Positions 1 through 1,731 of a stretch of DNA of 58,060 bases are shown here, in pieces. Position numbers and translations under genes: made by a program. Numbering within the stretch: position 1 is the stretch's first letter; every line of letters starts with the position of its first letter. The DNA is from Gemmatimonadetes bacterium SCN 70-22 (lineage in GTDB: Bacteria; Gemmatimonadota; Gemmatimonadetes; Gemmatimonadales; Gemmatimonadaceae), in contig MEDZ01000033.1 of assembly GCA_001724275.1 (NCBI GenBank), forward strand, positions 1 through 58,060, in the 5' to 3' direction. The notes beneath the pieces are model-generated. The model was not told the origin of the DNA and did not search any database. It saw only the letters and a list, made by a program, of their open reading frames with translations.

Positions 1-120
1 GGCGACGCCGGTGCGGGCGACGCCGGTGCGGGCGACGCCGGTGCGGGCGACGCCGGTGCGGGCGACGCCGGTGCGGGTGACGCCGGCGCGGGTGAGGCAG
101 GTGCGGGCGATGACGGTGCG
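1..120. repeat. 15-bp tandem repeat, coding
   Basis: Eight consecutive copies of a 15-bp unit (GGCGACGCCGGTGCG on the plus strand). The first five are identical and the last three are degenerate (ggtgacgccggcgcg, ggtgaggcaggtgcg, ggcgatgacggtgcg). The unit is a multiple of three and on the minus strand encodes a Ser-Pro-Ala-Pro-Ala repeat inside the gene at the left edge. The array touches the window edge, so its true copy number is unknown. Confidence 0.9.
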
Positions 121-575
121 GCCGGACGGTCGCCCGACACGTCGACGGCCTCGGTGGCACGCCCCGCCAGCACCGCCTGCGCCCCCGGGCTCAGCGAAGC
201 GGCGGCAGCGCGGGGGGCCTCGCTCACGACCTGGATTCGCTCGATCGCGCGGAGTGGTTCAGGGGCGAGCGACACCATCGCCGTCGCGTAGACACGGAAT
301 GCCCCCAGGTCGGGATTCGGGGAGGCAAGCTCCTGGCGCATCGCCTTCTGCATCTCGGCGTCGGCCGAGACGTAGCCGCGCAGCCCGGCCAGCAGCTGCA
401 TCAGCGCCAGCTCATAGTCCTCGTTGCTGTCGAATTCCAGCTCCCGACGGTTGGTCCGGTACGGGACGATCTGCTGGTACAGCTGCGACACCTCGAAGCT
501 CCGGGTGAGGAGCTCGGGGAAGCCGGCGCGAATGTTCTGGACCAGGCGGCGGTAGAGGCGTTCGAGCTCGTCCAT
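1..575 (-). CDS. Conserved hypothetical protein with (PAPAS)n tail, partial
   Basis: Starts at ATG 575-573 and is still open at the left edge, so only about 191 residues are seen. It begins MDELERLYRRLVQNIRAGFP, a soluble and probably helical domain of about 130 residues, followed by an Ala/Pro/Ser linker. From about residue 152 the linker is built by a 15-bp DNA repeat that keeps the frame and encodes SPAPA units. I do not recognise the family. The repeat looks like a flexible linker to a domain outside the window, which is inference. It is the last visible gene of a minus-strand group; 61 nt separate its start from the stop of the small membrane protein upstream. No strong ribosome binding site is visible. 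Confidence 0.7.
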   Translation of the reverse strand, partial: MDELERLYRRLVQNIRAGFPELLTRSFEVSQLYQQIVPYRTNRRELEFDSNEDYELALMQLLAGLRGYVSADAEMQKAMRQELASPNPDLGAFRVYATAMVSLAPEPLRAIERIQVVSEAPRAAAASLSPGAQAVLAGRATEAVDVSGDRPAAPSSPAPASPAPASPAPASPAPASPAPASPAPASPAPAS

Positions 576-636: not shown

Positions 637-819
637 CTAGCGCTTCTCGAGCCGATCCATCTGCGCGTCGACGTCCTGGTTGTACTTGCCGCGGGCCGAG
701 CCTCCGACGCGCTCGATCGTGCGCGTCACGACGTCCTCGTCGTGCGCTCGGGCATCCTTGAAGCCGAAGCTGTATCCGGCAGCGAAGCCAACGGCGAGGA
801 TGAAGACGATCTTGAGCAT
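637..819 (-). CDS. Small single-pass membrane protein, 60 aa
   Basis: ATG 819-817. The protein has an N-terminal hydrophobic segment (residues 2-19, LKIVFILAVGFAAGYSFG) followed by a charged tail rich in Asp, Arg and Lys that ends DAQMDRLEKR. It is probably anchored in the inner membrane by one helix. It lies 28 nt downstream of the RNase H-like gene on the same strand, so it is probably in the same transcript. I do not recognise a family. Coding use and the clear membrane/charged division support it as real, but a gene this short remains uncertain. Confidence 0.55.
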   Translation of the reverse strand: MLKIVFILAVGFAAGYSFGFKDARAHDEDVVTRTIERVGGSARGKYNQDVDAQMDRLEKR

Positions 820-847: not shown

Positions 848-1513
848 TCACGGACGCCCCGCGCCGACGGAGGGTAACCGCGACGCCGGGCGGAACCCGG
901 CGGGGTCGGGGAAGGGCTCGAGCCGCATCCGGTTCGCCGCCGTGCTCACCACGGCCGCCCAGGCCTCATACCCCGACTCCACGAGGCCCGGGGAATTCGT
1001 CTGCTCGCTCGCCGCCCGCATCGCCAGGTGGTTGGCATACTCGTTCTGCGCGTGCCCGGCGTGTCCTCGCACCCAGCGCCATTCCACCTCATGGCCGTCG
1101 ACCGACTGCACGGCCTCCTGCCAGAGTTCGAGGTTCTCGATGGGGCCCGCCTTGCGCTTCCAGCCGCGCCGGGCCCAGTCGTGCACCCACTGCGTCATGC
1201 CGTCCACGATGTAGCGTGAGTCCGTCGTGAAGACGACGCGAAAGAACGTCCCCTTGTGCGCGATCGCACGAAATGCCTCGATCACCGACCGGAGGGCCAT
1301 CCGGTTGTTGGTCGTCGCCGGCTCCGACACCCACGCGTCGCGGCGGACGATCGTGCCGCTGGCGCGGGCGTACTCCACCAGGATTCCCGCTCCCCCCGGG
1401 TTCTCCCCCTCGCGCCCGTTCCCGAGGCACGATTCGTCGGCGTAGATCGCGACCAGGGGATGGGCGTGGCGCGCCGCCACGCCGGGCGCGGCGCTCGAGA
1501 TCGTTCTCGCCAT
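848..1513 (-). CDS. RNase HI-like protein with two catalytic carboxylates substituted
   Basis: The 221-aa protein has the whole RNase HI landmark series: YADESCLGN (Asp1), TTNNRMALRSVIEAF, TTDSRYIVDGMTQWVHDW (Asp3), and GHAGHAQNEYANHLA. Compared with E. coli RnhA (TDGSCLGN, NNRMELMAAI, TDSQYV, NERCDELA), the catalytic Glu48 position is Ala and Asp134 is Asn, so two of the four DEDD carboxylates are missing. A C-terminal extension of about 55 residues follows the domain. The start ATG 1513-1511 shares one base with the stop of the 72-aa gene upstream (TGATG), so translation is probably coupled. It may be a non-catalytic nucleic-acid binder or an enzyme with altered metal binding. The fold is clear; activity is not. 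Confidence 0.85.
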   Translation of the reverse strand: MARTISSAAPGVAARHAHPLVAIYADESCLGNGREGENPGGAGILVEYARASGTIVRRDAWVSEPATTNNRMALRSVIEAFRAIAHKGTFFRVVFTTDSRYIVDGMTQWVHDWARRGWKRKAGPIENLELWQEAVQSVDGHEVEWRWVRGHAGHAQNEYANHLAMRAASEQTNSPGLVESGYEAWAAVVSTAANRMRLEPFPDPAGFRPASRLPSVGAGRP

Positions 1514-1731
1514 CAGCGCACGACCTCGAAGGTGTCGATCTCGTCGAGCATCAATACGATGGTATCGCCGGTGGTGGGGTGGATGGCCTCGATCGCCTCG
1601 CGCCCCTCGCGCAGGAAGAGGCGCGACGGGACGACGAGGTACTCCGTCCCGCGACGGATCACCGAGAGTCGGCGCCCCAGGGTGACGGCGCGCTCCAGCG
1701 CATCGTAGTCGGATGGGGAGAGGCGCGCCAT
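1513..1731 (-). CDS. Small conserved hypothetical protein, 72 aa
   Basis: ATG 1731-1729 overlaps the stop of the M20 peptidase by one base (TGATG), and its own stop overlaps the RNase H-like start in the same way. The sequence is soluble and mixed alpha/beta (MARLSPSDYDALERAVTLGR; later VLMLDEIDTFEVVR), with no signal, membrane helix or recognised motif. Its place between two tightly coupled genes is the main evidence that it is translated. No function is proposed. Confidence 0.65.
   Translation of the reverse strand: MARLSPSDYDALERAVTLGRRLSVIRRGTEYLVVPSRLFLREGREAIEAIHPTTGDTIVLMLDEIDTFEVVR

Follow-up and report, generated by a model that had tools for sequence, protein, structure and literature searches.

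A type 1 RNase H of Gemmatimonadota with a predicted relocation of its catalytic glutamate

The DNA analysed here (the window) is a stretch of 58,060 nt, positions 1 to 58,060 of contig MEDZ01000033.1 of Gemmatimonadetes bacterium SCN 70-22. The genes considered lie near its left end, all on the reverse strand, and include an RNase H gene whose product is referred to as P0001 (Table 1). A 15-bp tandem repeat of 8.1 copies occupies window positions 1-121, at the contig end, and codes for the SPAPA-repeat tail of the 191-aa reading frame on the same strand.

Table 1. Genes and active-site codons at the RNase H locus; relatives were counted in 80 named loci.
Feature	Position in window	Strand	Details
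191-aa protein	3-575	-	relative in 69/80 named loci
60-aa protein, hydrophobic start, downstream of RNase H	637-819	-	relative in 28/80 named loci
RNase H1 with relocated Glu (LC9 type), P0001	848-1513	-	221 aa, ATG to stop; active-site set D26, E27, D98, N161; A73 at the Glu48 site
Asn161, at the Asp134 site	1031-1033	-	codon AAC
Ala73, at the Glu48 site	1295-1297	-	codon GCC
DES motif D26-E27-S28, bearing the relocated Glu	1430-1438	-	codons GAC GAA TCG
72-aa conserved gene, function not assigned	1513-1731	-	stop overlaps RNase H start (TGATG); relative in 71/80 named loci
M20 family amidohydrolase (ArgE/DapE-like), upstream	1731-2936 (start codon provisional)	-	stop overlaps 72-aa start (TGATG); relative in 69/80 named loci

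The M20, 72-aa and RNase H genes form a conserved neighbourhood. Their association had been remarked upon in a preliminary description of the locus made from the sequence alone; it is real, and most relatives have kept it. Relatives of each neighbour were counted by phmmer (E ≤ 1e-3, a locus truncated by the end of its contig scoring as a miss) in 80 named loci, which are those among the matches listed; 23 further relatives lie beyond them. The titles of 78 of the 80 name Gemmatimonadota or a member of it, the other two (L009 and L048) being titled only as bacterium. A GHMP kinase relative was present in 30 of the 80. The 72-aa protein had no Pfam match over the cut-off and no NCBIfam match, and the 60-aa protein had no Pfam match. 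A resemblance of the 72-aa protein to Pfam STAT1_TAZ2bind fell under the cut-off and was rejected as chance.

P0001 matches PF00075 (E 1.4e-31, over the cut-off), the sole Pfam family found at E ≤ 0.1, and this match together with the RNase HI fold places it among the type 1 enzymes; PF01351, the RNase HII family, was unmatched in the same search. Against the NCBIfam ribonuclease HI model PRK00203 it scored 137.3 bits, under the cut-off of 160. The source genome (4.70 Mb, 84 contigs, 99.98% complete) contains P0001 as its one PF00075 match, no match to PF13456 (the second RNase H family) and one RNase HII (PF01351) match, on contig C32. The preliminary description had raised the possibility of a canonical rnhA or an rnhB elsewhere in the genome; the rnhB is there, and no further type 1 gene was detected by these two families. 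As the only RNase_H match of its genome, P0001 presumably removes R-loops and RNA primers, beside the one RNase HII.

Alignment of P0001 with E. coli RNase HI chains (phmmer) places D26 and D98 at Asp10 and Asp70, Ala73 at Glu48, and Asn161 at Asp134. Both aligned chains are laboratory mutants at the Glu48/Asp134 sites, and the wild-type Glu and Asp were read from the E. coli gene (L142). No gap occurs around either site (TTNNRM-A-L against TTNNRM-E-L, and NEYA-N-HLA at NERC-x-ELA), confirming the two substitutions first described, Glu48 to Ala and Asp134 to Asn. P0001 therefore lacks the canonical RNase HI set (DEDD, with Glu48, on the first helix, and Asp134). A third difference lies next to the first catalytic aspartate, where Gly11 of E. 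coli (D10-G11-S12) is replaced by Glu27 (D26-E27-S28).

An alignment error, with the true Glu and Asp elsewhere in the motifs, would be conceivable given that acidic residues (E27 and E158) lie in the neighbourhood, and a first alignment did set D26 wrongly in two canonical rows (L083 and L085) and left four rows gapped, faults that were mended in wider alignments. The chance of such an error in P0001 is negligible, as there are no gaps near its TTNNRM or NEYAN, the motifs on either side vary little or not at all, and the alignments already contradict it for both Ala73 and Asn161. The preliminary description had allowed for Glu and Asp at neighbouring positions. For Glu this holds in substance, by relocation to Glu27 and not by a shifted alignment, but for Asp it does not, and Asn161 stands.

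The distribution of these residues was followed in Gemmatimonadota. An RNase_H match was found in 376 of 395 genomes of the phylum, and sequences were read from 158 of these: 30 among the best matches, 28 chosen mostly for weak or double matches (the second match of G038 being left out), and 100 among the matches listed. The wider set, drawn from the 80 named loci, the 158 phylum genomes, seven outgroup loci and seven viral loci, came to 242 rows, of which 218 were distinct (191 full with Glu27, 19 canonical, 7 partial and 1 viral). Every distinct Gemmatimonadota sequence read that has Glu27 also has Ala73 (193 of 193: the 191 full and two of the seven partial rows). Conversely, all 19 cellular or phage-record sequences with Gly27 have Glu73; 12 of them come from the phylum and seven are outgroups, namely plasmid or phage records of E. 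coli, Sphingomonas, Deinococcus, Mycolicibacterium, Rhizobium, a Bacillus phage and a Vibrio phage. Among the 218 distinct sequences no cellular one has both glutamates or neither, and the sole degenerate viral sequence has neither, D26 and D98 being lost from it as well. In a set of 31 aligned sequences (P0001 included), D26, E27, A73, D98 and the stretch T68 to M72 are invariant, and N161 is nearly so.

The arrangement is thus no oddity of one genome. Whether Ala and Asn are fixed among homologues of the phylum has a divided answer: Ala73 is fixed together with Glu27, but Asn161 is not, since the 191 distinct full Glu27 rows have 150 Asn and 41 Asp at the Asp134 site. Judging from these sequences, Asn at that site is not a defining mark of the Glu27/Ala73 clade.

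The 12 canonical sequences of the phylum come from genomes with one RNase_H match each, six of them in another class (family code f11), three in families f8 and f10, and three in f5. In the f5 genomes (G264, G226 and G164, loci L083, L084 and L085, respectively) the only RNase_H match is of a divergent canonical type (GVFTDGSSHPNPGPGGWG), which was possibly acquired from elsewhere by transfer, replacing the resident gene. One further genome (G110) carries two RNase HI genes, L112 and L141, which differ at the Asp134 site, where one has Asp and the other Asn; the pair may represent two strains in one bin.

The closest solved structure by sequence is 4ibn (phmmer E 1.4e-112, 378 bits; the next scored 117.9 bits), released on 2013-03-20 as 'Crystal structure of LC9-RNase H1, a type 1 RNase H with the type 2 active-site motif'. 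The corresponding paper (Nguyen et al. 2013, FEBS Lett 587:1418), which is cited in an excerpt of PMC4423430, refers in its title to an 'atypical DEDN active site motif' and to a metagenome-derived enzyme. An AF2 model of P0001, made from the 31 aligned sequences (mean pLDDT 87.1, pTM 0.85), also had 4ibn as its best fold match (81% identity, TM 0.92 by target, Z 32.0, rmsd 2.3 over 207 residues), and shares the overall structure of LC9-RNase H1. The identity extends over 209 alignment columns, C-terminal extension included, and the DES, TTNNRMA and NEYAN motifs are common to both, so that 4ibn has the same letters as P0001 at all three distinctive sites: Glu directly after the first catalytic Asp, Ala in place of Glu48 and Asn in place of Asp134. 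The two differ in origin, one being metagenome-derived and the other from a Gemmatimonadota genome, and in about one-fifth of their residues.

Mutational analysis reportedly put the second glutamate of LC9-RNase H1 next to the first Asp, an arrangement like that of RNase H2; the enzymatic properties are said to be like those of RNase H1, the relocated Glu being functional. The "E" of DEDN would then stand for the relocated Glu. P0001 is very likely an RNase H1 of the LC9 type, with its catalytic Glu relocated beside the first Asp, and predicted to be an ordinary working enzyme; the variant itself is already published, as LC9-RNase H1, and is common to most of the sampled relatives in the phylum.

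The metal-ligand set of P0001 is unusual. The protein resembles E. coli RNase HI (rnhA) in its fold (the best E. coli chain gave Z 19.7 over 145 residues), in Asp10 and Asp70, and in the TTNNRM and GHAGH motifs. It differs, in addition to the three substitutions given above, by four residues inserted past the DES motif and by a C-terminus that is longer by about 40 residues. According to an excerpt of PMC8900815, the ligands of metal B in E. coli RNase HI are Asp10 and Glu48, and those of metal A are Asp10, Asp134 and Gly11. Residue 11 is thus in contact with the metal site to begin with, and a Glu at this place could make up for the missing Glu48 ligand through its side chain. Glu27 would then do the metal-ligand job of Glu48, and would form an adjacent Asp-Glu pair with D26, as in RNase H2. 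Such a pair is found near the domain start of RNase HII, and the genome's own RNase HII has it in GIDEVGRGP. RNase HII is nonetheless a separate gene in the same genome, and the sequence and fold matches listed for P0001 fall among type 1 enzymes and RNase H domains of the retroviral type.

The fourth position would be occupied by a weaker metal ligand, Asn161 in place of Asp134. An Asn for the fourth Asp of DEDD is also described for soybean Rsv4, a member of the RNase H family labelled 'DEDN' in an excerpt of PMC6764979. Rsv4 is a plant dsRNase, described there with the fourth residue alone changed, and the shared label does not denote the same arrangement as in P0001. The same excerpt states that Rsv4 inhibits a virus and that a change of its first Asp abolishes the antiviral effect; function is therefore not ruled out by an Asn in the fourth place.

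The preliminary description had taken the replaced carboxylates to suggest either a binder of RNA:DNA hybrids or an enzyme with unusual metal use. The site is indeed atypical. An inactive binder (a pseudo-RNase H) would agree with the replacement of two canonical carboxylates, and the RNase HI of B. subtilis 168 is reported, in an excerpt of PMC9719913, to be without RNase H activity. For P0001 we regard it as highly improbable, since the carboxylate gained after D26 is invariant in all 31 aligned sequences and alternates without exception with Glu73, D26 and D98 remain in place, the protein is the sole RNase_H match in a nearly complete genome, and the 81% identical 4ibn is titled as an RNase H1 with an active-site motif, not with the loss of one.

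Another reading is a crippled enzyme that works only with Mn2+, like E. coli mutants at Glu48 and Asp134. Two such mutants, 1wsg (E48A/D134N*) and 1wsi (E48A/K87A/D134N), carry the same two substitutions as P0001, made in the laboratory. The first was crystallised with Mn2+, and the title of Tsunaka 2005 names single Mn2+ sites that are needed to activate Glu48 and/or Asp134 mutants. The aligned E. coli mutant chain, however, retains Gly at position 11 and has no relocated Glu, whereas Glu27 is fixed here, and relatives with Asp161 exist, which indicates that the site has not simply decayed. Dependence on Mn2+ is accordingly an unlikely explanation, if a less remote one than an inactive binder. 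Reading the site as crippled overlooks the compensating Glu27 beside the first catalytic Asp. P0001 is probably an active RNase H1, as predicted from its residues and those of its relatives.

The history of the swap was examined in trees built without the active-site columns. A FastTree of 123 rows left out partial and viral rows and rows at least 80% alike; an IQ-TREE of 63 rows, under a mixture model, additionally left out eight long-branched canonical rows and rows at least 71% alike. The Glu27/Gly27 state changed once in each tree (with 95/94 on the dividing branch of the IQ-TREE). Asn and Asp at position 161 interchanged far more often, at least 13 times in the FastTree and at least nine in the IQ-TREE, figures that are rough because many forks are poorly separated, and in which gain and loss are not told apart. 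Both trees carry a warning that long branches may have been drawn together among the outgroups.

By the genetic code, Gly to Glu and Glu to Ala are each a single base change. Unless both residues changed together, an intermediate must have existed, and none is in the sample. On balance we lean towards a history in which the catalytic Glu moved once, with no sampled intermediates (sequences with both Glu or, if cellular, with neither), and in which the new state came to prevail in nearly all RNases HI sampled from one class. The fourth carboxylate would thereby have been freed, changing between Asp and Asn about ten times, and the phylum would amount to a natural experiment on a dispensable metal ligand. 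What is added to the known LC9 variant is modest: its fixation, single origin and changeable fourth ligand in the phylum, which were not found in the literature searched, although the 2013 paper on LC9-RNase H1 may discuss some of them. The identification prevents the misannotation of these enzymes as dead RNases H across Gemmatimonadota, and offers a clean case of an active-site residue that has moved to another place in the chain with the fold, and probably the reaction, unchanged. The natural Asp/Asn variants at the fourth ligand are material for weighing one-metal against two-metal models of RNase H catalysis.

Relatives were also sought outside the phylum, with search patterns derived from P0001, and the restriction to Gemmatimonadota therefore holds for the sampled sequences. 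With the whole protein as a tblastn query, no best place reached 60% identity in 50,697 phage records (1,293 matched) or in 72,556 plasmid records (783 matched). The seven plasmid and phage records examined all show D-G where Asp10 lies and Glu where Glu48 lies. A 29-residue query from the DES region returned four plasmid records (best E 5), and the one examined lies opposite an annotated gene and was taken as chance. An IMG/VR search with alignment gave seven weak loci, of which the four kept share one identical RNase H sequence. It has Gly at position 11, with E, A and S in the places of Asp10, Glu48 and Asp70, respectively, and so does not represent the same swap.

In one of these four loci, an open reading frame (L150:2410-3339, forward strand) fuses a NADAR domain (PF08719, E 2.9e-30) to the RNase H domain (PF00075, E 8.4e-13); the same RNase H sequence occurs in L149, L151 and L152. 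From its residues, the RNase H domain of L150 is probably catalytically dead and perhaps hybrid-binding, and the fusion is nearer than P0001 to the hybrid binder that was first imagined for this locus.
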